The translations under genes were made by a program, and so were the position numbers. This document shows, piece by piece, positions 44,083-53,930 of a stretch of DNA of 64,000 bases; position 1 is the first letter of the stretch; each line of letters starts with the position of its first letter. The notes beneath the pieces are model-generated. The model had not been told where the DNA came from and made no database searches. It saw only the letters and a program-made list of their open reading frames with translations. The DNA lies in the NCBI GenBank assembly GCA_030824495.1, contig JAVBXP010000015.1, positions 161,372 through 225,371 of the forward strand. Direction: 5' to 3'. The stretch is from a bacterium. Lineage in GTDB: Bacteria; Pseudomonadota; Alphaproteobacteria; Caulobacterales; Caulobacteraceae.

Positions 44083-44220
44083 TTAGCGCTTGGCGTCTTC
44101 GGCGGTGTCGGTAACCGCGGTGCCTGCGGCCTTCACGTCCTTACCTGCGCCGGAAACGGTGTTGCAGGCGGTGACCGAAAGGCTTGCGGCCAGGACGGCT
44201 AGAATAACGAGCTTGCGCAT
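44083..44220 (-). CDS. entericidin-family small lipoprotein
   Basis: 45 aa, below the size of most gene-calling cut-offs. MRKLVILAVLAASLSVTACNTV is a lipoprotein signal with lipobox SVTAC, followed by GAGKDVKAAGTAVTDTAEDAKR, the amphipathic core typical of EcnA/EcnB. Entericidins are stress-induced toxin/antidote-type lipoproteins. An AGAGAGA site precedes the ATG. A perfect EcfG promoter lies 44-68 bases upstream, and a strong terminator follows, so this is a self-contained stress transcription unit. Confidence 0.85.
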   Translation of the reverse strand: MRKLVILAVLAASLSVTACNTVSGAGKDVKAAGTAVTDTAEDAKR

Positions 44221-44263
44221 GAGCATTCTCTCTTTGGAGGGATAGTGAAACTTGCTGCACCGT

Positions 44264-44288
44264 AACGACTATGCTGCGGCCTGGTTCC
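44264..44288 (-). promoter_or_regulatory. EcfG promoter of the entericidin gene
   Basis: On the minus strand GGAAC (44288-44284), sixteen bases, then CGTT (44267-44264). The expected transcription start is about 44257, about 37 bases before the entericidin ATG. The element lies across the 3' end of the phyK coding region. Confidence 0.8.
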
Positions 44289-45993
44289 CCACAGCGGCCG
44301 CTCGTTTCACGGCCATTTCAGCGGTCGGCGTCGGGAAGACAAGGCGAGCGGTGATGCCGCCCTTTTCGTTCCGCACGACCTCGGCCCGGCCACGGAGCTG
44401 ACGCCCGAAGGCGGTCATCAGGGTGCGGCCGACGCCGGACGTGCTCAGGGCGTCTTCGGGGGCGTTTCCATCGTCGCTGATCTCCAGCGTCGCCTCATCG
44501 CCATGCACCTTGAAGTTCACGCTCAGCGTGCCCCCCTTGCCGGCGAAGGCGTGCTTCTGGGCGTTGGTGACCGCCTCCACCGCGAACAGGGCCAGCGGCG
44601 CCAGCCGGTCGGGGTCGATCACTAGGTCGTCGACATGGATCTCGGTGCGGACGTGCGCGCCCTGGACCGCCTCGGCGGAGATCAGCTGCGCGGTCAGTTC
44701 TTCCAGGAAGGCGCGCAGATCCACGCGCTTCAGGTCGGGTCCCTGATAAAGGGCGCGGTAGATGAGGGCGAGCGCGGTGATCCGCTGGCGCGTATCTGAC
44801 ATCGCCGCGCGCGCGGCCGGATCGGACAGCGCCCTCTGCTGCATGCTGAGCAGGGATGAGATGACCTGAAGGTTGTTTTTCACCCGGTGGTGGATTTCAC
44901 GCATCAGGTCGTCCTTCTGCGCCAGGGAGTCGCGCAGCGAGGCGTCGCGCCCGACAATGGCGTCGGCCATGTCTTCCAACGTCTCGGCCAGATCGCGGAT
45001 CTCGGGCGGTGCGCGGTCGGCGTGGACCGGCCGCACGCTGAGGCGGCCGCGGGCGTAGAGCGCAGCGATCCGCTGCAGATAGGCGATCCAGCGGATCACC
45101 ACGCGCTCAGTGACGACCGACACCGCCACCAGCGCCAGGATGAAGGTCAGGATCGGGAAGACGATACTGGTCAGCGGGTTGAGCGTAGCCCACGAGAACA
45201 GGCCGCCCGACTGCGCTGACAGCACGACATAAAGCTGGTCGCCGACCAAGGGTGCGGCCGAGAACACTCGCTGCTTGCCGCGCAGGTCGCGGTCGTACCA
45301 GACCAGCGAACCCTGCTTTTGCGCCTTTTCACGCCAATCAGCGGGCAGATCGGGGAAAGCCTCCTTGTCGGTGGCGTTGATGTAGCCGCCTGCGCCATCG
45401 ACGAGCGCCACCTCGGCCCCCTTCGGCAACGAGCGGTCGGCCGTGCGAGGGGCGAGACTTTCGAGCGAAATCACCGCCACCAGTGCGCCGTCGAAACCGA
45501 CGCGAGCGTCGGTGGCCGGCACGGCCGCCAGCAAGGCCGGAACGTTGGCGTAGGACGCGCCGGGATCGCGGGTGATCACTAGGCTGTCGCCGGCGGCCAG
45601 GCTCTGGAACCATGGGCGGGTGGCCCGGATCGGGTCGGCCGGCACATTGCCCGCTGCGCAGGCGACGCGCCCGCGCCGATCGAAGCGGATCAGGTTCGAA
45701 TAGCCGGGAATCCGCGCCGTCACCTCGGCGAGCCGCTGGGCGCAATTGAAACCCACGGAACCGGGAGCAAGGGTTTCGAGCAGGATGTCGGCTGCTTCCA
45801 TCCGCGCGCGGGCGGTGGCGGCGCTGCGCTCAGAGGCGGCGGCGAGTCCTTCGCGTAGTTGGACGCTTTCGCGCCGGAAGGCGATCCCCGACTGTAGAAC
45901 GCCGAGCACCAGAACGGGCAAGAGGGCGGCGGCCAGCGCCGCCGTTAACCGGACCCGGATGGTAGATAGGGAACCCCAAGGCGAGACATGCAT
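44269..45993 (-). CDS. phyK: PhyK-like general stress sensor histidine kinase
   Basis: 574 aa HisKA_2/HWE-related kinase. N-terminal membrane helix (about residues 17-37), a large periplasmic sensor region, a second helix (about 270-295), a HAMP-like linker, then the His-box LMREIHHRVKNNLQVISSLLSMQQRA and an ATPase domain (FAVEAVTNAQKHAF, GVGRTLMTAFGRQLRG). PhyK-type kinases phosphorylate PhyR on stress. It lies nine bases after ecfG and so belongs to the nepR-ecfG-phyK unit. Topology and neighbours support the call. Confidence 0.88.
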   Translation of the reverse strand: MHVSPWGSLSTIRVRLTAALAAALLPVLVLGVLQSGIAFRRESVQLREGLAAASERSAATARARMEAADILLETLAPGSVGFNCAQRLAEVTARIPGYSNLIRFDRRGRVACAAGNVPADPIRATRPWFQSLAAGDSLVITRDPGASYANVPALLAAVPATDARVGFDGALVAVISLESLAPRTADRSLPKGAEVALVDGAGGYINATDKEAFPDLPADWREKAQKQGSLVWYDRDLRGKQRVFSAAPLVGDQLYVVLSAQSGGLFSWATLNPLTSIVFPILTFILALVAVSVVTERVVIRWIAYLQRIAALYARGRLSVRPVHADRAPPEIRDLAETLEDMADAIVGRDASLRDSLAQKDDLMREIHHRVKNNLQVISSLLSMQQRALSDPAARAAMSDTRQRITALALIYRALYQGPDLKRVDLRAFLEELTAQLISAEAVQGAHVRTEIHVDDLVIDPDRLAPLALFAVEAVTNAQKHAFAGKGGTLSVNFKVHGDEATLEISDDGNAPEDALSTSGVGRTLMTAFGRQLRGRAEVVRNEKGGITARLVFPTPTAEMAVKRAAAVGNQAAA

Positions 45994-46002
45994 CCTCTCA
46001 GC

Positions 46003-46608
46003 CTAACGAACAGTACTCAGCCGCTCCGCGTCGGCGAGAATCGAGCTCATGGCGTCTCCAGCCGCGCTCCCGTCCCGCTCGTATGAGCCGTCTTCCAAAA
46101 TAGCATGGAGCGCGCGGCGCGCCCGGCTCACGCGGCTTTTCACTGTGCCGACAGCGCAGCCGCAAATGTCTGCGGCTTCTTCGTAGGCGAAGCCGCCAGC
46201 ACCGACGAGGATCAGGGCTTCGCGTTGTTCCGGCGGTAGTTGAGCCAGACTTAGGCGAAGTTCGTCCAGCGCCACCGGAGCTTCCGGATCATCCACCGCG
46301 ACCAGGGTGCGTTCGGCGGCTTCCTGGTCAAGCTGGGTCTGGCGCCAGGATCGACGCTTTTCGGAATAGAACTGGTTGCGCAGGATCATGAAGGTCCAGG
46401 CCTTCATGTTGGTGCCCATCTGGAAGCTGGCGCGAGCGTCCCAGGCCTTCATCATGGCGTCCTGGGCCAGATCGTCCGCCCCGGCCGGCTCGCCGGCCAG
46501 AGTCCTGGCGAAGGCGCGAAGATGCGGGATAAGCTTGACCAGCTCGCGCTTGAAAGCTTCGTCAACCGCGGGATCGGTGGGCGGCCGGGCCTTGCTGTCG
46601 CCCGCCAT
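46003..46608 (-). CDS. ecfG: general stress sigma factor EcfG (SigT)
   Basis: 201 aa ECF sigma factor. Region 2: FARTLAGEPAGADDLAQDAMMKAWDARASFQMGTNMKAWTFMILRNQFYSEKRR. Region 4: LSLAQLPPEQREALILVGAGGFAYEEAADICGCAVGTVKSRVSRARRAL. It is the EcfG group by sequence and by neighbours (nepR immediately upstream with a one-base overlap, phyR divergent, phyK downstream). It recognises GGAAC-N16/17-CGTT promoters, many of which occur nearby. Confidence 0.95.
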   Translation of the reverse strand: MAGDSKARPPTDPAVDEAFKRELVKLIPHLRAFARTLAGEPAGADDLAQDAMMKAWDARASFQMGTNMKAWTFMILRNQFYSEKRRSWRQTQLDQEAAERTLVAVDDPEAPVALDELRLSLAQLPPEQREALILVGAGGFAYEEAADICGCAVGTVKSRVSRARRALHAILEDGSYERDGSAAGDAMSSILADAERLSTVR

Positions 46609-46796
46609 CAGCCATTCTCCGCGGTCTTCTTGTCGGCTTGACGAAGGATGGCGAGGAACTCGTCCGGGACGGGTTCGCTGACGACCTCATCGAACATTTG
46701 ACGCAATCGCACGCCAATCGCCTGCTGACGCAGCCGGGCTTCGTCCAGCGCCGCCGGCGCGTGGCGCCGATCTTCAGTGGCTCGTTGTTCTATCAT
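46608..46796 (-). CDS. nepR: anti-sigma factor NepR
   Basis: 62 aa from ATG at 46796: MIEQRATEDRRH, then the conserved helix pair DEARLRQQAIGVRLRQMFDEVVSEPVPDEFLAIL. NepR sequesters EcfG until phosphorylated PhyR takes it away. The stop overlaps the ecfG start (TGATG). The start is uncertain: no clear ribosome site precedes 46796, and a longer frame begins at ATG 46898, which coincides with the predicted EcfG transcription start. The shorter form matches the family length. Confidence 0.88.
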   Translation of the reverse strand: MIEQRATEDRRHAPAALDEARLRQQAIGVRLRQMFDEVVSEPVPDEFLAILRQADKKTAENG

Positions 46797-46904
46797 GGCA
46801 TCGGCGCCCGGCTTTCGCGGAGCCCGCCCCCTCGGTTCGTTATCGTGGCCCGTCAACGCCTCACCCCACCCAGGGTTCCATGATCCCGCATATAGCATGG
46901 GGAA

Positions 46905-46930
46905 AACCAGTTTCTGAGGGAACCGGTTCC
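46905..46930 (-). promoter_or_regulatory. EcfG promoter of nepR-ecfG-phyK
   Basis: Minus strand GGAAC (46930-46926), seventeen bases, GGTT (46908-46905). It shares the GGGAACCGGTTCCC palindrome (46918-46931) with the divergent phyR promoter. Autoregulation of the sigma factor is expected. Confidence 0.7.
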
Positions 46931-46943
46931 CAAAGGCGACGTT
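46919..46943 (+). promoter_or_regulatory. EcfG promoter of phyR
   Basis: Plus strand GGAAC (46919-46923), sixteen bases, CGTT (46940-46943). It drives phyR, whose TTG start is 80 bases downstream. Its -35 overlaps that of the nepR promoter within one perfect 14-base palindrome. Confidence 0.85.
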
Positions 46944-47022
46944 TGGAGCACATGATGCGCCCCCGTTGGGGAAGGTTCCCCCGTGGGCGTAAAATTTTCA
47001 TCTCCTAGGGAGGGGTTTTACC

Positions 47023-47820
47023 TTGAGTCTTCTTGCCCGATTGGCGCCGCATCTGCCCTATGTGCGCCGCTATGCGCGCGCGCTAACGGGCGACCAGACG
47101 ACCGGCGACCATTATGTTCGCGTCGCATTGGAAGCTGTCGCCGCCGGTGACCGGGTGCTTGAGGACAGCCTCACCCCGCGGGTCGCGCTCTATCACGTCT
47201 TCCACGCGATCTGGCTTTCGACCGGTGCGCAACTTGAAGCGCCCGGCGATGACGAGGGCGGTGTCGATGACGCCAGCCGTCGCCTGATGCGCATCGCGCC
47301 GCGCTCGCGCCAGGCCTTCTTGCTCACGGCGCTCGAGGGCTTCACGCCGTCGGAGGCTGCTCAGATCCTGGGCGTGGACTTCCCCGAGGTCGAACGTCTG
47401 ATCGCCGAAGCCCAGTCCGAGATCGACGCCGAGCTCGCCACTGACGTCCTGATCATCGAGGATGAACCGGTCATCGCCGCCGATATCGAGGCGCTGGTCA
47501 CCGAGCTTGGCCATACCGTGGTCGACATCGCCGCGACGCGCACAGAAGCGGTCGATGCGGTCGCCCGTAAGACTCCGGGTCTGGTCCTGGCGGACATCCA
47601 ACTCGCCGACGGTTCGTCCGGGATCGACGCGGTCAAGGATATCCTGGCGCGCTTCGATGTGCCGGTGATCTTCATCACTGCCTTCCCCGAGCGCCTGCTG
47701 ACCGGTGAACGGCCCGAGCCGACCTTCCTGATCACCAAGCCGTTCCAGCCGGAAACGGTGAAGGCGGCGATCGGCCAGGCGCTGTTCTTCCACCCGCGCA
47801 ACACCCGCAAGGCTGCCTAG
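47023..47820 (+). CDS. phyR: PhyR response regulator / anti-anti-sigma factor
   Basis: 265 aa from TTG, with AGGGAGGGG upstream. N-terminal sigma-like domain (residues 1-135) with an EcfG-like region 4 mimic (SRQAFLLTALEGFTPSEAAQILGVDFPEVERLI), then a receiver (140-260): VLIIEDEPVIAADIEALV, phosphoacceptor Asp about 191 in LVLADIQLADGSSG, Thr-containing FITAFPERLLTG and Lys about 239 in TKPF, the FAT GUY type. Phosphorylated PhyR binds NepR and frees EcfG. Divergent from nepR-ecfG-phyK. Confidence 0.96.
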   Translation: MSLLARLAPHLPYVRRYARALTGDQTTGDHYVRVALEAVAAGDRVLEDSLTPRVALYHVFHAIWLSTGAQLEAPGDDEGGVDDASRRLMRIAPRSRQAFLLTALEGFTPSEAAQILGVDFPEVERLIAEAQSEIDAELATDVLIIEDEPVIAADIEALVTELGHTVVDIAATRTEAVDAVARKTPGLVLADIQLADGSSGIDAVKDILARFDVPVIFITAFPERLLTGERPEPTFLITKPFQPETVKAAIGQALFFHPRNTRKAA

Positions 47821-47822
47821 CC

Positions 47823-47847
47823 GGAACGGCGGCGATCACCTCGCGTT
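47823..47847 (+). promoter_or_regulatory. EcfG promoter upstream of the first DUF1328 gene
   Basis: GGAAC (47823-47827), sixteen bases, CGTT (47844-47847), just after the phyR stop. Predicted start about 47854, that is, within the 5' arm of the phyR terminator. Confidence 0.7.
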
Positions 47848-47851
47848 CTTG

Positions 47852-47883
47852 AAACGCCGCGTCGATCTCGGCGCGGCGTTTTT
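47852..47883 (+). terminator. intrinsic terminator after phyR
   Basis: AAACGCCGCG/CGCGGCGTTT arms with a ten-base loop, followed by TT; the T-tract continues to 47883. It lies downstream of the EcfG promoter at 47823 and before the DUF1328 ATG. Confidence 0.75.
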
Positions 47884-47901
47884 CATTTGCGGGAGAATTC
47901 G

Positions 47902-48075
47902 ATGCTGGGTTGGGCTCTGTTGTTCGCCGTCCTCGCCGTGTTGGCCGGCTTTCTGGGCTTTGTGGGCCTGGCCGGCTTCGCCGCGACCGTGGCCAAGGTG
48001 CTCTTTGTGATCTTCCTGGTCCTGCTGGTGGTCAGCTTCGTGGTCCGGGCGGTCAAAGGGCAGTCGGTGCTCTAG
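47902..48075 (+). CDS. DUF1328 small membrane protein (copy 1)
   Basis: 57 aa from MLGWALLFAVLAVLAGFLGF, two membrane helices (about residues 3-25 and 32-49), the DUF1328 pattern ending VVRAVKGQSVL. GGGAG precedes the ATG. An EcfG promoter lies upstream, although the phyR terminator stands between. A paralogue is at 52173. Proteins of this family are common in alphaproteobacterial stress regulons; function unknown. Confidence 0.82.
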   Translation: MLGWALLFAVLAVLAGFLGFVGLAGFAATVAKVLFVIFLVLLVVSFVVRAVKGQSVL

Positions 48076-48097
48076 CCGCATCGTTCGACGACCACGA

Positions 48098-48129
48098 AAA
48101 AGCGGCCGCCTGATGGGGCGGCCGCTTTT
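48098..48129. terminator. bidirectional intrinsic terminator
   Basis: AAAAGCGGCCGCC/GGCGGCCGCTTTT hairpin with a six-base loop; flanked by A and T tracts, so it can end both the DUF1328 gene and the minus-strand gene at 48150. Confidence 0.85.
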
Positions 48130-48149
48130 GTATATCCGACCAGGCTGGT

Positions 48150-48419
48150 CTAGTTGGGCGGAGTGTTCGGCGATGAAGTGGTCTGTTGGGCCGCCGGGTC
48201 GCCCATATTGAAGGCGGCGGCGTCAGCCGGCTGACGCGCGTTGTTGGGAGCGGTGGAGGCCAGGTCGTCGGCCCGCCACGACCAAGCTGCAAACAGAGCG
48301 AGGGCGGCCAGGGCAGTCGACACCACCAGTACCCAGAACATGTGAACGCCGAAGCGCCCTTGCCGGGCGCTCGTGGCGTTGAGCGTGGAACGGGAAGAGT
48401 GGCGCGAGAGAATGGCCAT
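48150..48419 (-). CDS. small single-pass membrane protein of the stress cluster
   Basis: 89 aa, not recognised. A basic N-terminus (MAILSRHSSRSTLNATSARQ) precedes one membrane helix (about residues 25-46, HMFWVLVVSTALAALALFAAW), then a polar Ala/Asn/Pro-rich tail. AGGAGGCG precedes the ATG. It is 18 bases downstream of another small membrane-protein gene on the same strand, apparently in one unit driven by the EcfG promoter at 48677-48701. Function unknown. Confidence 0.65.
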   Translation of the reverse strand: MAILSRHSSRSTLNATSARQGRFGVHMFWVLVVSTALAALALFAAWSWRADDLASTAPNNARQPADAAAFNMGDPAAQQTTSSPNTPPN

Positions 48420-48437
48420 GGATGTCGCCTCCTGAAA

Positions 48438-48632
48438 TTAGTGGGGGAGCTGGCTGAAGGGGCCGGGCGGCGTCGGTCGAGATGCGTCATTGCGGACCAC
48501 CGACATCTGGCCCAGCAGCGCGCCAGCCAACGCGACCGACAGAATGACGGCCAACGCAATCCAGCGTCGGCGCACCGGTCGGCTACCGGATGAAATGATC
48601 AGGCTGTGTGGGTCGTCATGAGTGCCGATCAC
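48438..48632 (-). CDS. small membrane protein of the stress cluster
   Basis: 64 aa, not recognised. Start taken at GTG 48632 (AGGGGCGA upstream); a TTG at 48659 would add nine residues. A basic segment (SGSRPVRRRW) is followed by one membrane helix (about residues 26-47, IALAVILSVALAGALLGQ) and a short polar tail. The EcfG promoter at 48677-48701 lies 37 bases upstream of the longer start. First gene of a two-gene unit. Function unknown. Confidence 0.55.
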   Translation of the reverse strand: MIGTHDDPHSLIISSGSRPVRRRWIALAVILSVALAGALLGQMSVVRNDASRPTPPGPFSQLPH

Positions 48633-48676
48633 GGTCTTCGCCCCTGACAAGACGGGCAACGGACCCGCATCTGGCT

Positions 48677-48701
48677 AACGTGCCGGCGGTGCGGGTGTTC
48701 C
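48677..48701 (-). promoter_or_regulatory. EcfG promoter of the small membrane protein operon
   Basis: Minus strand GGAAC (48701-48697), sixteen bases, CGTT (48680-48677). Predicted start about 48669, just ahead of the 48632 start codon. Confidence 0.8.
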
Positions 48702-48772
48702 AATTCACGGGCCAGGAACACATCTGCATGCCTGGGCTTCGGTTGAGGGGGCCGATCCCCTATCTTAGGGGC

Positions 48773-49144
48773 ATGACTCGTTCGATGATCGCTCTCTTCA
48801 CTGCCGCCCTGCTCGCCTCAGCCGCTGGTCTGCCGGCCCACGCCCAGGCTCCTTCGGCGTCCGCCCACGGGGTCGACACCGCGCAGGGCGGCACGACCGC
48901 CGCGCAACTGGTCGGCCGTACCGTTCGGGGCCGCGATGGCGTCGTTCTCGGTGAGGTGGAGCGCGTCACTTTGCGCCGCGACGGATCCCCGGCCCAGGTG
49001 TTGGTGCGACCGAAAGGGCCGCGCCCAGGTGGGCCGCGCAGCCTCTCCTATGGCTCGCTGCGGATCGAGAGCGACGGGCTTTCGACCCCCCTGACTCTCG
49101 CCGAGTTCAACGCCATGCCGGTGATTGACGTAGAGTCGAAATAG
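48773..49144 (+). CDS. secreted PRC-barrel-like protein
   Basis: 123 aa from MTRSMIALFTAALLASAAG, signal peptide cleaved near AHAQ. The mature part contains TAAQLVGRTVRGRDGVVLGEVERVTLRRDGSPAQVLVRP, a PRC-barrel-type beta pattern. Earlier in-frame codons upstream are non-coding. No EcfG promoter was found for it. Predicted periplasmic; function unknown. Confidence 0.72.
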   Translation: MTRSMIALFTAALLASAAGLPAHAQAPSASAHGVDTAQGGTTAAQLVGRTVRGRDGVVLGEVERVTLRRDGSPAQVLVRPKGPRPGGPRSLSYGSLRIESDGLSTPLTLAEFNAMPVIDVESK

Positions 49145-49169
49145 GCCCGAAAAAATTTCGCGCGTCGCG

Positions 49170-49194
49170 GGAACGATTGGCATGGGGGCGGGTT
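49170..49194 (+). promoter_or_regulatory. EcfG-type promoter of the candidate sRNA
   Basis: GGAAC (49170-49174), sixteen bases, GGTT (49191-49194). Transcription would start about 49201. The -10 is GGTT rather than CGTT, as in the nepR promoter. Confidence 0.7.
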
Positions 49195-49200
49195 TATGGA

Positions 49201-49326
49201 TTGCGGAGGCGGCGACGCCCCCCCCGACTTGAGGCCGGCCTCCAGGCCGGTCTGCTGCCTCCGCACCCCCTTTTCTCGATGATGCAGCCTCAAACAGGCG
49301 GACCCGCTGGGCCCGCCTTTTCTTTT
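49201..49326 (+). ncRNA. gsrN: candidate general-stress small RNA (GsrN-like)
   Basis: A roughly 124-base transcript inferred from an EcfG promoter just upstream and a terminator at its end. Its 5' half forms an 11-pair stem (GCGGAGGCGGC at 49203-49213 with GCTGCCTCCGC at 49254-49264, one G-U pair) enclosing a run of eight C (49218-49225) and an inner GGCCGGCCT-type hairpin. The 3' end is the hairpin GGCGGACCCGCTGGGCCCGCC (49297-49317) followed by TTTTCTTTT. There is no reading frame with a ribosome site. Caulobacter GsrN is an EcfG/SigT-controlled sRNA with an exposed C-rich loop that pairs with mRNAs; the architecture here agrees, but sequence homology has not been tested. Confidence 0.65.
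49297..49326 (+). terminator. intrinsic terminator of the candidate sRNA
   Basis: GGCGG(A)CC/GG(C)CCGCC hairpin at 49297-49317 followed by TTTTCTTTT. It lies 14 bases before the convergent OmpA-family stop. Confidence 0.85.
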
Positions 49327-49340
49327 GGTGGCCCTACCGC

Positions 49341-49790
49341 CTAGGGGTTGCTGAGCTCGATCGTGACGTCGGCCCGGCGACGCATGAGGCGCGCATCGCC
49401 TTCGGCGGTGATGGCGCCGGTCTGACCCGCCGCGGCAAGGTCGAACTCGGGCGTGGGCAGACCGGTCGAATTCAGCGAGCGGGTCACGGCCGCGGCGCGC
49501 TTCTTTGAAATCTCGAGATTCGCCGCCGGGGCGCCGACAGCGTCAGCCAGGCCCATGACGCGAACGCGCTCGATCTTGCACGACTTGGCTTGAGCAGAGG
49601 CCTGGTTCAGCACGGCCTGACCCTCGCTGGTCACCTCAGAGCTGTCGGGCTCGAAGTAAATCTGCACGGTCACGTCTTCGCAGGCGGCGGGCGCCTTGAC
49701 GATCTGGTCGCGGGTATTGCTGAGCGTCGCGCAGCCGGAGACGGCCAGGCCGGCGCCAATCGCGACTGCGATGATCGTCGAAGTCCTCAT
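49341..49790 (-). CDS. OmpA-family lipoprotein
   Basis: 149 aa from MRTSTIIAVAIGAGLAVSGCATL, lipobox AVSGC. The OmpA C-like domain reads VTVQIYFEPDSSEVTSEGQAVLNQASAQAKSCKIERVRVMGLADAVGAPAANLEISKKRAAAVTRSL: the usual peptidoglycan-binding loop (NxxLSxxRAxxV) is partly kept (NLEISKKRAAAV) while the first Asp-containing GHTD motif is GLAD. Anchored to the outer membrane, probably tethering peptidoglycan. Not preceded by an EcfG promoter. Confidence 0.82.
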   Translation of the reverse strand: MRTSTIIAVAIGAGLAVSGCATLSNTRDQIVKAPAACEDVTVQIYFEPDSSEVTSEGQAVLNQASAQAKSCKIERVRVMGLADAVGAPAANLEISKKRAAAVTRSLNSTGLPTPEFDLAAAGQTGAITAEGDARLMRRRADVTIELSNP

Positions 49791-49882
49791 TCCAAGCCCC
49801 ATAGTCTTCAAGCCCCAAGCGATAACGGAAAGGGCGGTCAGCATAACCGACCGCCCAAGCTAAGCTAGTCTAGACGGAGCCC

Positions 49883-50242
49883 TTACCGCGGGCTGCCGTC
49901 TTCCCAGAAATACCGTCCCGAACCGGAGTCGTAGTAGTAATACCGACCGGCTCTTTCATCGTAGTATTGGCGATGGTTGGCGCTGGGCTGAGCCCCGCAA
50001 CCGCCGTCCTGGCGGCAGCCGCGGACCGCGCCGGCGCCGCCGCCGAGCGCCGCGCCGATAGCGGCCCCGGTTCCCGCGTCGCCGCCGCCAACGTTATTGC
50101 CGATCACAGCGCCGGCCAGCGCGCCGAGCGCGGCCCCGCCTGCGGCGTTGCGTTCCACGTTCCCCGTGGTGGTGCAGGCGGCCGTCAACAGACCAGCGCC
50201 GGCTATGGCGATCAACGGCTTAAGCGAAAGGGCCTTGAGCAT
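49883..50242 (-). CDS. glycine-zipper lipoprotein of the stress cluster
   Basis: 119 aa from MLKALSLKPLIAIAGAGLLTAAC, lipobox LTAAC, AAGGAGAG before the ATG. A glycine-zipper region (AAGGAALGALAGAVIGNNVGG and AAIGAALGGGAG) is followed by a Tyr-rich tail (ERAGRYYYYDSGSGRYFWEDG). It resembles YMGG-type glycine-zipper outer-membrane lipoproteins. A perfect EcfG promoter precedes it by 34 bases, divergent from that of the diacylglycerol kinase gene. Confidence 0.8.
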   Translation of the reverse strand: MLKALSLKPLIAIAGAGLLTAACTTTGNVERNAAGGAALGALAGAVIGNNVGGGDAGTGAAIGAALGGGAGAVRGCRQDGGCGAQPSANHRQYYDERAGRYYYYDSGSGRYFWEDGSPR

Positions 50243-50275
50243 ATGGGCTCTCCTTGAACATATCCCGCCGGAGCC

Positions 50276-50300
50276 AACGCGCTGCTTGAGGGCGAGTTCC
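50276..50300 (-). promoter_or_regulatory. EcfG promoter of the glycine-zipper lipoprotein gene
   Basis: Minus strand GGAAC (50300-50296), sixteen bases, CGTT (50279-50276). Its -35 forms half of the palindrome GTTCCGATCGGAAC at 50296-50309. Confidence 0.85.
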
Positions 50301-50304
50301 GATC

Positions 50305-50329
50305 GGAACCCCATTCAGGCTTCACCGTT
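50305..50329 (+). promoter_or_regulatory. EcfG promoter of the diacylglycerol kinase operon
   Basis: GGAAC (50305-50309), sixteen bases, CGTT (50326-50329). Back to back with the promoter at 50276; the two -35 boxes are four bases apart. Confidence 0.85.
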
Positions 50330-50359
50330 AGGCAGGACAAGTAAACCGGAGTACCCACC

Positions 50360-50452
50360 ATGCCCCAACGTCGCCATCTGGGCTCAGCCCTGCGCGATCA
50401 ACTCGGGGCCGAAGGCTGCGCGTGGCGGTCGGCCCGACGAACGGCGGGCTGA
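50360..50452 (+). CDS. short leader ORF before the diacylglycerol kinase gene
   Basis: A 30-codon frame beginning ATG with ACCGGAG eight bases upstream and ending TGA five bases before the next gene. The product (MPQRRHLGSALRDQLGAEGC...) has no recognisable domain. It sits about 24 bases after the predicted EcfG transcription start. It may be a leader or coupling peptide, or chance; weak evidence. Confidence 0.3.
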   Translation: MPQRRHLGSALRDQLGAEGCAWRSARRTAG

Positions 50453-50457
50453 CGATC

Positions 50458-51339
50458 ATGGATGTGAAGCCCAAAATTTCCCGCGTCGAAGTGGTGGTGA
50501 ACACCGCCTCGGGCAGCGTATCGGCCCAGGCCCCTGACGAAATGCGGGCTCTGCTGTCCGAGCTCGGTCTGAAATCGAACGTCTGCGCTCCGGAGAGCGG
50601 CGATCTGACCCGCTGCCTGCGCGACGCCGTGGACGCCGACCCCGATCTGCTGATCATCCTGGCCGGCGATGGGACCGCCCGCACGGCCGCAGAGATGGCG
50701 GGGCCGGACGGTCCGGTGATCGCGCCCTTGCCGGGCGGTACGATGAATATGCTGCCTTATGCGGTCTATGGCGTGACGCCCTGGCAGGATGCGCTGCGTG
50801 GCGCACTGGAGACGGGCCGCGAACGCCCCATCGGGGGAGGGCGGATCGATGGCCGCAATTTCCTGGTCGCGGCGATCCTCGGCTCCCCTGCACTCTGGGC
50901 GCCGGCGCGTGAAGCGGTGCGTGAGCGGCGGCTGACCCTGGCTTGGCGGCGCTCACAGCGAGCCTGGGCCCGGGCCTTCTCCGGGCGCCTGCGCTACGCC
51001 CTGGACGGCGGGCCGCGGGGCAAGGCCGAAGCCTTGGCGTTCCTATGCCCGCTGGCCTCAAAAATCATGTCCGATACCGATCAGGCGCTTGAGGCTGCGG
51101 TGATCGATCCCAAGAGTGTGATCGACGCCGCCCGCATCGGTCTGAACGCCTTGGTGTCGGATTGGCGCGTCGATCCCTCCGTCGAGACGCACCCCTGCCA
51201 GACGGCGGGCGTCTGGTCGGCGGGAAGGATCCCTGCGGTTCTGGATGGCGAACCCGTGCGGCTGGGTTCGACGGCAAAGGTCGAATGGCGTCCAAAGGTC
51301 GCCCGGATTTTGGCCCCGCCACCGGAGCCGGCGGCGTGA
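50458..51339 (+). CDS. diacylglycerol kinase catalytic-domain protein
   Basis: 293 aa from MDVKPKISRVEVVVNTASGSV. The lipid-kinase core is LLIILAGDGTARTAAEMAGPDGPVIAPLPGGTMNMLPYAVYG, with the GGDGT-like (AGDGT) and PGGTxN motifs, as in DgkB/YegS and sphingosine-type kinases. Upstream GTG at 50422 is possible. Under an EcfG promoter and overlapping a metallophosphoesterase gene by four bases (GTGA), so the two are coupled. Likely phosphorylates a membrane lipid or related alcohol; substrate unknown. Confidence 0.88.
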   Translation: MDVKPKISRVEVVVNTASGSVSAQAPDEMRALLSELGLKSNVCAPESGDLTRCLRDAVDADPDLLIILAGDGTARTAAEMAGPDGPVIAPLPGGTMNMLPYAVYGVTPWQDALRGALETGRERPIGGGRIDGRNFLVAAILGSPALWAPAREAVRERRLTLAWRRSQRAWARAFSGRLRYALDGGPRGKAEALAFLCPLASKIMSDTDQALEAAVIDPKSVIDAARIGLNALVSDWRVDPSVETHPCQTAGVWSAGRIPAVLDGEPVRLGSTAKVEWRPKVARILAPPPEPAA

Positions 51340-52118
51340 TCAGGATCGCCCATCTGTCCGATATCCACTTCGGAGGCGAGAATGTCGCCGCCGTCGCCGC
51401 CGCTGCTGAGATGATCGGGTCGGGTGGCTTTGACCTCACCATCGTTTCCGGCGACCTGACCCAGTTCGGGGCGGTGGGGGAGTTCGAGACAGCCGCTGCG
51501 TGGCTGAAGACCGTGCCGGGCCCGATGTTGGTCTGCCCCGGCAATCACGATGCACCGTACCTGGCATGGTGGGAGCGGTTCTTCACGCCGTTCGCCCGCT
51601 TCAGCAGAATGATCGGACCGGCGGAGGCCCAGACCCACGTCGCCGATGATTTCCTGGTGCGCGGGCTGAACACCGCCCGCGGCGTCCAGCCTCGGGCGAA
51701 CTGGTCAAAGGGGCAGATATCGCGTCGGCAAACTCGCGACGCCACCGATTGGCTGTGCGGCGCAGCCGATGGAAAGCTGAAGATCCTGGTCTGCCATCAC
51801 CCGCTGACCGAGATGATCGGCGGTCCAATGACCGCAAAAGTGTGGGGCGGGAGCGCCGCAGCACAGGCCTTGGCCGAGTGCCGTGTCGATCTTGTACTTT
51901 CCGGGCATATCCATGCGCCCTTCGCGTGGCCCTATCCGTTTGGCGACGGCAAGACCTATGCAGTCGGGGCTGGGACCTTGTCGGTGCGCGAGCGGGGCGT
52001 GCCGGCAGGATTTAATATCATCGAAGCCGACGACGCGGAGATCCGGGTCATCGCCCAGGCGTGGGAACGCTCGCACTACACGCCCTATCGGACCTGGTCC
52101 CTGGACCGCAGACGCTAA
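51336..52118 (+). CDS. calcineurin-like metallophosphoesterase
   Basis: 260 aa from GTG, overlapping the kinase stop. Metal-binding motifs: IRIAHLSDIHFGG (DxH), LTIVSGDLTQFG (GDxxx), LVCPGNHDAPY (GNH[DE]), LVCHHPLTEM (His) and LVLSGHIHAPF (GHxH). Likely a phosphohydrolase acting on a nucleotide or phospholipid; the coupling with the lipid kinase suggests a counter-reaction, but that is inference. Confidence 0.9.
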   Translation: MIRIAHLSDIHFGGENVAAVAAAAEMIGSGGFDLTIVSGDLTQFGAVGEFETAAAWLKTVPGPMLVCPGNHDAPYLAWWERFFTPFARFSRMIGPAEAQTHVADDFLVRGLNTARGVQPRANWSKGQISRRQTRDATDWLCGAADGKLKILVCHHPLTEMIGGPMTAKVWGGSAAAQALAECRVDLVLSGHIHAPFAWPYPFGDGKTYAVGAGTLSVRERGVPAGFNIIEADDAEIRVIAQAWERSHYTPYRTWSLDRRR

Positions 52119-52147
52119 AACGCCCGCCCCGGTGAAGGGCGGGCGTT
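52119..52147. terminator. bidirectional intrinsic terminator
   Basis: AACGCCCGCCC/GGGCGGGCGTT hairpin directly after the phosphoesterase stop. The T-run on the minus strand (TTTTAGCG) suits the second DUF1328 gene, whose stop is 26 bases away. Confidence 0.7.
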
Positions 52148-52172
52148 GCAGTCTCACGTCTTGGACGTCGCG

Positions 52173-52346
52173 CTATAAGGCTCCGCGCCCTCGAACCATG
52201 TGCATGACGAGGGAAACCACGAACAGCACCAGGAAGACGAAGAATAGAATCTTGGCTACGCCCATCGCGGCGCCCGCAATGGACGTAAAACCAAGTACAC
52301 CGGCGATCAGGGCGACCACCAGGAAAGTCAAGGCCCAGCCGAGCAT
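52173..52346 (-). CDS. DUF1328 small membrane protein (copy 2)
   Basis: 57 aa, below usual gene-calling size. [20 protein letters not shown] is followed by [37 protein letters not shown]: two membrane helices and the DUF1328 pattern. GGAGGAACGAC precedes the ATG. A perfect EcfG promoter lies 33-57 bases upstream. Paralogue of the gene at 47902. Confidence 0.88.
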
Positions 52347-52378
52347 GTCGTTCCTCCGAATTTGTATCCGGTATTAAG

Positions 52379-52403
52379 AACGTCTTGCCGGCTAAGCAGT
52401 TCC
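52379..52403 (-). promoter_or_regulatory. EcfG promoter of the second DUF1328 gene
   Basis: Minus strand GGAAC (52403-52399), sixteen bases, CGTT (52382-52379), just downstream of the sodB stop. Confidence 0.85.
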
Positions 52404-52409
52404 GCAGGT

Positions 52410-53045
52410 CTAGGCCGGGAGCGGGTAGCGCCAGGCTTCGCCCGTGCCCTGAGCGGCCGCATACTGGTCGGCGGCGAAGGACCAGTTGGCCAGGGCGTCA
52501 AACCAGGCCTTCAGGAACGCCTCGCGGTCGTTCTTGTGGTCGAGATAGTAGGCGTGCTCCCACAGGTCGCAGACGATCAGCGGCGTCTGGCCCTTGTTCG
52601 GCAGCAGGTCTTCGCCGTCATGGGTGTCGATGATCTTCAGCGCGCCGCCCTCGGCCGCCAGCCAGACCCAGCCCGAACCGAAGTGGGCGACGCCGGCCTT
52701 CACGAACTCTTCCTTCAGCTTGTCGAGGCCGCCGAAATCGCGGTCGATAGCCTTGGCCAGGTCGCCGTCGGGGGTCTGCTTCGTCGGGGTCATGCAGGCC
52801 CAGAAGAAGGCGTGGTTCCAGGATTGGGCGGCGTTGTTGAACAGCTTCTTGGCGTCGGCCTTGCCGGCGGTCTCGCGAACCACGTCTTCGAGGCTGGCGG
52901 GCTTCTGGCCCTTTTCCTCGAGGATCTGGTTGGTGACGTCGACATAGCGCTTGTGATGCTTGTCGTGATGCAGGTGCATCGTCGCCTTGGAGATCACTGG
53001 CTCCAGAGCGGCGTGGTCATAGGCGAGATCGGGCAATTCAAACAT
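52410..53045 (-). CDS. sodB: iron superoxide dismutase
   Basis: 211 aa cytoplasmic SOD. Metal ligands are in MHLHHDKHHKRYVD, SWNHAFFWACMTP and IVCDLWEHAYYLDHKN; AHFGSGWVWLAA contains the Fe-type signature. Converts superoxide to hydrogen peroxide and oxygen. It stands in the stress cluster, but no EcfG promoter is seen immediately upstream of it. Confidence 0.96.
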   Translation of the reverse strand: MFELPDLAYDHAALEPVISKATMHLHHDKHHKRYVDVTNQILEEKGQKPASLEDVVRETAGKADAKKLFNNAAQSWNHAFFWACMTPTKQTPDGDLAKAIDRDFGGLDKLKEEFVKAGVAHFGSGWVWLAAEGGALKIIDTHDGEDLLPNKGQTPLIVCDLWEHAYYLDHKNDREAFLKAWFDALANWSFAADQYAAAQGTGEAWRYPLPA

Positions 53046-53120
53046 AGGACGTTCCTGGGGGATAGGAGTGGGGCCGGAGCCCGCAGTCCCATTGAAACCC
53101 CGAGCATCCGGTTTAGTTCT

Positions 53121-53522
53121 CTATTTCTTGGCGACGCGGCTGGCGATCAAGGTCGTTATCACCGCGCTGGTGATTTTTGGGTTCTTCATCGCCACGGCCG
53201 CCGCCGCGCCGAGCGCCCCGAGGGCGCCAAGCGCGACCCACGGTTTGTCCCGCGCGAGTTCAAAAACCCGCATGGTCAGGTCAGGCTCGTTGGGTTGTTG
53301 CCCCGGCGGATGGGGCGGGATGATCTTCCCAAGCAGAACCGCCGACAGGATCACCGTCACCGTGAGGGCGGCGGCAGCCACGGCCGCGGCCGACCACGCT
53401 GGTCCAATGTTCGGGACGAGCGCGGCGTAGAGCGCGAGCGCCAGGAACACGACACAAACAGTCGCCGCCGCGGCGAGCGCGGCGACGGCGACGGCGTAAT
53501 AGATCGTCTTCTTCAGGATCAA
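53121..53522 (-). CDS. holin-like / YqjE-type membrane protein
   Basis: 133 aa with two membrane helices (about residues 7-35 and 46-68) and a third weak segment near the C-terminus. It matches the Actinobacteriophage-holin/YqjE-like family linked to stress, not a phage lysis gene: no phage genes are nearby. The start overlaps the stop of the YqjD-like gene by four bases, so it is the second gene of an EcfG-driven operon. Confidence 0.75.
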   Translation of the reverse strand: MILKKTIYYAVAVAALAAAATVCVVFLALALYAALVPNIGPAWSAAAVAAAALTVTVILSAVLLGKIIPPHPPGQQPNEPDLTMRVFELARDKPWVALGALGALGAAAAVAMKNPKITSAVITTLIASRVAKK

Positions 53523-53839
53523 CGGTTACGGCCGCTGGCCAGCAAGATACCGACCAAGAGACCAACGCCGAGCGCGGCGCCGGCAGCCACCAAGGGCTTT
53601 TCCTTCACGCGTTCGACCACATAGCGTTGAGCGTCATCGAGGTGTTCGCCGGCGTTGTCGGCATAGGTGCGCGACTGGGCGCGAATTTGGTCCAGACCCT
53701 CGCTGACGACTTTTTCGAAACGCTTGGCGGCGTCGTTGAAGCTGCGTTGCGCTTCGCTCGACAGCTTATGCGCGGATTCGGCGACCGAATTGGCGGCGGC
53801 CTTGGCTTCGTCTTTGTAATCGGCGGCGTTGGTGGCCAT
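53519..53839 (-). CDS. YqjD/ElaB-like (DUF883-type) membrane-anchored protein
   Basis: 106 aa from MATNAADYKDEAKAAANS. A long amphipathic helix region with many Ala/Glu/Lys/Asp residues (about 8-75) is followed by a C-terminal membrane anchor (KPLVAAGAALGVGLLVGILLAS) ending RNR. In E. coli, YqjD is a ribosome-associated, stationary-phase protein. The frame extends to 53899 but the chosen ATG is at the family start. Driven by the EcfG promoter at 53906-53930. Confidence 0.82.
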   Translation of the reverse strand: MATNAADYKDEAKAAANSVAESAHKLSSEAQRSFNDAAKRFEKVVSEGLDQIRAQSRTYADNAGEHLDDAQRYVVERVKEKPLVAAGAALGVGLLVGILLASGRNR

Positions 53840-53903
53840 TTCAGTCTCTCCAGTACTGCGGGCGGGCTCAAGGGGTCCTTGAGTGTGGCATGTGAGCATT
53901 GCC

Positions 53904-53928
53904 GGAACGTCAAAGACAATAGGCGGTT
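53904..53928 (+). promoter_or_regulatory. EcfG-type promoter of the HWE kinase gene
   Basis: Plus strand GGAAC (53904-53908), sixteen bases, GGTT (53925-53928). It overlaps the divergent YqjD-like promoter almost completely. Confidence 0.55.
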
Positions 53929-53930
53929 CC
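53906..53930 (-). promoter_or_regulatory. EcfG promoter of the YqjD-like operon
   Basis: Minus strand GGAAC (53930-53926), sixteen bases, CGTT (53909-53906). Predicted start about 53899. Confidence 0.8.

Follow-up and report, generated by a model that had tools for sequence, protein, structure and literature searches.

A GsrN small RNA beside the phyR-nepR-ecfG locus of a genome very likely from Phenylobacterium

Upon stress, PhyR captures NepR and thereby frees the general stress sigma factor EcfG. The closest described relative of the RNA analysed here is GsrN of Caulobacter crescentus, for which we draw on the covered sections of Tien et al. 2018 (PMC5869019). There, GsrN is ccna_R0081, with a deletion numbered 59-106; its loop contains six C, its internal ends are C53, T54 and T64, and it is cut into a stable 5' isoform of 51-54 nt. 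Seven loop bases, including four of the six C, pair with the first seven bases of the katG mRNA, the target on which the action of the C loop was proven, and the first 58 nt of the RNA rescue peroxide survival (PMC5869019). Full-length GsrN disappears when hfq is lost (Tien et al. 2018, PMC5869019), and a 2024 paper (PMC11005374) states, in the part considered here, that a function of Hfq in GsrN activity was not observed. Homologs are reported in Caulobacter, Brevundimonas and Phenylobacterium, typically near ecfG, nepR and phyR, C. crescentus being an exception with a distal gsrN, and the EcfG promoter elements used are GGAAC and CGTT (Tien et al. 2018, PMC5869019). The family, its occurrence in Phenylobacterium and its usual location are hence already in print. 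Our literature search on small RNAs and the general stress response in Phenylobacterium, outside whose scope most subscription papers lay, returned only Tien et al. 2018.

Membership in the GsrN family

The window, that is, the whole stretch of 64,000 nucleotides analysed here, comes from a genome whose genus group (g1) is very likely Phenylobacterium. Positions 49205-49318 (+) score 73.3 bits with the Rfam covariance model RF01529 ('CC3552'), whose cut-off is 50 (E = 8.8e-10), and the alignment covers the full model (positions 1-106 of 106). RF01529 is the sole Rfam family found in the 64-kb window at Rfam's own cut-offs, and this copy is the only one found in the genome. The name 'CC3552' reportedly goes back to Landt et al. 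2008. The original prediction had proposed a GsrN-like RNA under EcfG control at this place, a reading that the match above the cut-off supports, together with the conservation of promoter, loop and position. Since homologs in Phenylobacterium are already published, the window RNA is a further GsrN member, an ordinary and well-supported representative of a known small RNA family. Compared with the homologs of Phenylobacterium and Brevundimonas (Tien et al. 2018, Figure 9, in the sections covered), which belong to the same family and usually lie beside the stress locus, it shows no difference of kind.

Of 199 Caulobacteraceae genomes, 125 have an RF01529 match, which exceeds the cut-off in 119; the 125 members are the 129 rows obtained (128 matches plus the window) minus four rows from genus group g3, which by sequence likeness is probably Brevundimonas. 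These four rows, each a candidate second copy of gsrN scoring 35-37 bits, were rejected, as they have no promoter, no C run and, by eye, a protein-coding look. R1, a model that we built from 63 GsrN sequences, matches 127 of the 199 genomes; outside Caulobacteraceae it matched nothing in a sample of 200 genomes of the order searched with strict filters, all 36 matches falling within the family. Within this sample of the order, the model yielded no link to the GsrN-like RNAs proposed for Rhizobiaceae, Brucella and Bradyrhizobium, which resemble the window RNA in having an EcfG promoter and a place near the stress locus and, for the Rhizobiaceae, an exposed C-rich loop (PMC5869019, sections covered).

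The identity of RF01529 with GsrN can be read from two genomes of the Caulobacter group, G130 and G077. With the RF01529 start moved two bases upstream in all members, a length of 106 nt is found in 10 of the 125, the combination of C53, T54 and T64 in 3, and a run of six C in 21, and only these two genomes show all of them. Both also carry GTCGGGG, the complement of the loop part CCCCGAC, at -39 to -33 of katG, and neither has phyR within 7 kb; in G130, gsrN lies about 83 kb from phyR. Because length, C53/T54/T64, six C, katG site and distal phyR agree in these genomes, RF01529 is the RNA published as GsrN. On these matches G130 and G077 may fittingly be called C. crescentus-like. The control genome, C. 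vibrioides, likewise matches RF01529.

Seen through G130 and G077, the window RNA resembles C. crescentus GsrN in its EcfG promoter at the same distance, its 11-pair stem and inner hairpin, its C-rich 5' loop ending in CCCCCGACUUGAG, its linker and its terminator, and in having the predicted cut within the stem's 3' strand. It differs in having eight C instead of six and about 122 nt instead of 106, in lying beside phyR-nepR-ecfG instead of about 83 kb away, in its linker (UUCUCGAUGAUGC instead of UUUGUUGAUGC), and in that no katG leader site was found in the window genome.

Promoter, fold and stress locus

The EcfG-type promoter predicted upstream of the RNA is present, with the -35 element GGAAC (49170-49174, +) separated by 16 bases from the -10 element GGTT (49191-49194, +), a single mismatch from the consensus GGAAC/CGTT. 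Taken alone, this promoter would be weak evidence. The window contains 13 GGAAC-N16/17-[CG]GTT sites against 0.95 expected per shuffled window, and nine strict GGAAC-N16/17-CGTT sites against 0.5 expected, all within 44288-53930; as read from its sequence, the window is itself a stress hub. Across the family, 124 of 125 members have GGAAC at a distance of 35-37 nt before model position 1; the remaining one is truncated by a contig end. The -10 variants found behind an N16 spacer among these 124 members include CGTT (57), GGTT (16), TGTT (15) and AGTT (14). The nine strict sites (44288-53930) lie near phyR, nepR-ecfG and small stress-type genes, among them an entericidin-like lipoprotein ORF (44083-44226, recognised by eye), a DUF1328 protein with a similar ORF (52173-52346), a glycine-zipper protein, a DAGK-like kinase and others.

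The transcript is predicted at 49203-49326 (+). Its start was set at a conserved GC two bases upstream of the match, by analogy with the 106-nt C. crescentus RNA, so that from a start near 49203 it would measure about 122-124 nt. The stem, C run and terminator that had been proposed from the sequence were all recovered. The outer stem pairs 49203-49213 with 49254-49264 (+) through 11 pairs, one of them G-U, and the equivalent of the published C53/T54 cut falls at 49259/49260 in its 3' strand. Enclosed by this stem, the run of eight C (49218-49225, +) forms the 5' side of an internal loop between the outer stem and an inner hairpin (49232-49253, +; nine pairs in the isolated 5' domain), and is predicted to be about 90% unpaired in the isolated 62-nt 5' domain. 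The 3' side of this recognition loop is GACUUG (49226-49231, +), with CCGACTTGA found there in 100 of 125 members; CCCCGAC is the part of the loop that matches the katG leader in G130 and G077. The intrinsic terminator, a GC-rich hairpin (GGCGGACCCGCTGGGCCCGCC) followed by TTTTCTTTT, occupies about 49297-49326 (+). A simple terminator scanner listed nothing at these positions, probably because of an internal A/C mismatch. An 81-aa minus-strand ORF spans the RNA and was taken as spurious.

Comparison of 63 sequences shows that the stems covary. Over 21 pairs, 97.1% of cells pair, and both-side changes are found in 14 pairs against 6.9 in shuffles, none of 500 shuffles reaching as high; sliding the pairing partners lowers pairing to 30-53%. 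The outer stem (helix 1) is paired in 99.7% of cells with both sides changed in 5 of 11 pairs, the inner hairpin shows both-side changes in 6 of the 7 pairs counted, and all three pairs counted in the terminator (helix 3) covary. The loop is the most conserved part of the RNA, the C run holding 1.93 of a possible 2 bits per column over the 7 columns counted in 63 sequences. Together with the Rfam E-value of 8.8e-10, the covariation (0 of 500 shuffles) confirms that the RNA signal is more than chance. Because it was the GsrN family model that found the 63 sequences, this comparison confirms the structure but does not discover it. Taken singly, the window sequence has an unremarkable folding energy (z = -1.40, matched by 24 of 200 shuffles). 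In the minimum-energy fold of the whole transcript (-50.1 kcal/mol) the 5' end pairs with some of the C run, and the family-like centroid fold is about equally stable (-49.6 kcal/mol). The length of the C run varies by genus, seven or eight being commonest; in one genome of the same genus as the window (G108, L254 near 7000, -) the loop contains 14 C instead of the usual eight.

The position beside the core stress locus, also part of the original prediction, is real and conserved. In the window, phyR (47023-47820, +; anti-anti-sigma factor; Pfam PhyR_sigma2, PhyR_sigma-like and Response_reg) lies 1.4 kb upstream of the RNA in the same direction, and nepR (46608-46898, -; anti-sigma factor; Pfam NepR, 56.9 bits) and the sigma factor gene (46003-46608, -; Pfam Sigma70_r2 and r4_2) precede it, the latter being named ecfG because it adjoins nepR and phyR. 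For 109 of 125 members, a flank of up to 7 kb (shorter where a contig ends) encodes PhyR or NepR; of the 109 with a flanking PhyR, 106 have it upstream of the RNA and in the same orientation. A whole-genome search of the remaining 16 found PhyR at another place in 14, and the two without it are drafts of genus g5.

Furthermore, the occurrence of PhyR tracks that of gsrN, which is new here: PhyR occurs in 123 of 125 gsrN-positive genomes but in 26 of the 47 gsrN-negative genomes tested (p = 4.6e-12 in Fisher's test, with no correction for kinship). The gsrN-negative genomes are the 72 without an R1 match, of which these 47 were tested in two batches. The first gave 7 of 19, counting matches of at least 300 bits (best match of the other 12 at most 40 bits), and the second 19 of 28 at E <= 1e-20, with G174 left out because R1 detects it and with G054 partial. 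This provides a clear evolutionary frame for GsrN, in which the RNA goes with the PhyR system and katG does not go with the RNA.

With family membership, promoter sequence, structure, position and PhyR co-occurrence directly observed, we hold it very probable that the window RNA is GsrN, predicted to be transcribed by EcfG and likely to pair its C-rich loop with G-rich mRNA sites. Expression, cutting and pairing in the window species are modelled on C. crescentus. Stress would lead PhyR to capture NepR, the EcfG thus freed would read the promoter at 49170, and an RNA of about 122 nt would be made. A predicted cut near 49259 (49259/49260) would yield a stable 5' fragment, about 57 nt long, with the C8 loop, and the exposed loop would pair with G-rich sites in mRNAs.

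The linker and diverged RNAs

Between the 5' domain and the terminator lies a linker, UUCUCGAUGAUGC (49273-49285, +). An exact copy of its core, TCGATGATGC, is found in 69 of 125 members (29 of 33 in g3, 20 of 30 in the window genus and 5 of 38 in Caulobacter); this core holds 1.24 bits, against 0.34 for the bases after it and 1.35 for the spacer before it. Among the 26 PhyR-positive genomes without an R1 match, four, all of g3 (G107, G127, G180 and G198), carry the exact 13-mer UUCUCGAUGAUGC behind an EcfG promoter, with a differing 5' domain, and with the terminator, just downstream of phyR. The survival of the linker in four genomes with a differing 5' domain is new here; the covered sections of Tien et al. 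2018 hold no discussion of the linker or of a loss of the katG site.

These four genomes give no R1 match at E <= 0.001, although G107 reaches 24.4 bits (E = 0.008) with filters off. In G127 and G198 the fold is still a stem enclosing a region that contains four or five C; G107 and G180 are without such a run. The promoters of the diverged RNAs are at L369:7974 (-) in G107 and L409:2765 in G198, and at L413:2307 in G180 and L424:2698 in G127, both counted on the reverse strand. In the other 22 of the 26 genomes the linker was not found behind an EcfG-type promoter in the stretch read, which for 19 of the 26 was about 1.5 kb either side of phyR, less at contig ends. One of the 22, G181, belongs to the genus of the window and has an EcfG promoter (L367:7979, -) and a terminator downstream of phyR (20.9 bits, E = 0.035), with neither C loop nor linker; in the stretch read for the other 21, no EcfG-type promoter is followed by the linker or by a C loop.

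The linker may thus be a second working part of the RNA, and the four genomes, few and related as they are, suggest a reusable 3' half with an exchangeable targeting domain. In its full form, which we regard as improbable but worth stating, GsrN would have two parts: a fixed chassis, formed by the EcfG promoter, the linker UUCUCGAUGAUGC, the terminator and the place after phyR, and an exchangeable 5' domain. The linker of Phenylobacterium would then be a second active site and the C loop would serve targets other than katG; a linker site would have gone unseen in C. crescentus because that lineage lost the linker. G107, G127, G180 and G198 could be natural experiments on a stress RNA changing its targets.

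A stronger version, in which the RNA of Phenylobacterium works mainly through UUCUCGAUGAUGC, a further site for pairing or for binding a protein, and the C loop plays a lesser part, seems to us more doubtful still. It draws on the exact linker in these four genomes despite their differing 5' domain, with promoter, terminator and phyR place kept, and on a core that is better conserved (1.24 bits) than the bases that follow (0.34 bits) and is kept exactly by 20 of 30 members of the genus. However, in ordinary members conservation is much higher in the C run (1.93 bits), the spacer preceding the linker matches the linker core in conservation (1.35 bits), and the core is kept by only 5 of 38 Caulobacter members. 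The four cases, all in g3, may reflect one or two events, and in the stretch read no linker turned up in the 22 further genomes that have PhyR and lack a GsrN match. Moreover, the first 58 nt of C. crescentus GsrN, without the linker region, rescue peroxide survival (PMC5869019, sections covered). We retain as likely the reading in which GsrN acts through its C loop.

One pairing of the linker was considered and not adopted. Small RNAs are known to target glmS in enteric bacteria, and positions 49273-49285 are complementary, over all 13 bases, to the glmS codons for GIIEN in the window genome (L432 near 1501) and in many of the 30 loci read (glmS recognised by eye). Genomes of g14 and g21 in which no GsrN was matched carry the same site, the glmS complement is missing from the C. 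crescentus-type linker, and by a rough estimate common codons in a conserved motif could explain it. The complement is probably a coincidence arising from common codons.

Messages paired by the loop, and the upstream ORF

That GsrN controls katG in the window species as it does in C. crescentus is very unlikely, even though the loop is the same and katG is present in the genome. The best contiguous run in the 90-nt katG leader is four pairs (p = 0.935), and the same method recovers the published site in G130 and G077; that no katG site was found in the window genome is new here. Start codons were assigned by rule, the contiguous-pair test is weak for G-rich leaders, and in one genome with two katG only one was used. 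At p <= 0.05, leaders were found in 2 of 9 Caulobacter (G130 and G077), 1 of 12 Phenylobacterium (not the window) and 1 of 9 g3 genomes. GTCGGG occurs at -49 to -33 in 5 of 9 Caulobacter leaders (p 0.02 to 0.14), so that outside G130 and G077 the support for katG pairing is modest even in Caulobacter. The single katG leader of the window genome (L172) has no G tract except GGGAGG at the ribosome-binding position, where pairing with the C run would be expected to repress and not to activate.

Furthermore, katG is missing from 10 of the 40 gsrN-positive genomes tested, so it cannot preserve the loop everywhere. Since the loop is near-invariant and no katG site is recognisable here, other messages probably hold it constant in the window species. 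Which messages keep a C loop almost unchanged across a bacterial family is a testable question. Perfect genome-wide complements of ten bases (AAGTCGGGGG) showed no excess, with 5 matches against 9 for the reversed control; one of the 5 is the RNA's own complement, and two of the four others, which were read, are not clearly leaders.

The weakest alternative, to which we give almost no credence, is that the hairpins merely end transcription from the gene upstream (48773-49144), or are a relic, and do not form a separate regulatory RNA: the ORF does stop 58 bases before the RNA in the same direction, but it was detected near only 11 of 125 members including the window (9 of 30 in the same genus), the RNA's own promoter element is kept in all 124 checkable members, and covariation and a near-invariant loop speak for the RNA itself.

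A scan with the loop motif returned at least 120 genome stretches, and among the matches listed 18 have an EcfG-type promoter. Among the 80 titled matches listed, those with an EcfG-type promoter are exactly the 11 named Caulobacter, Brevundimonas or Phenylobacterium.
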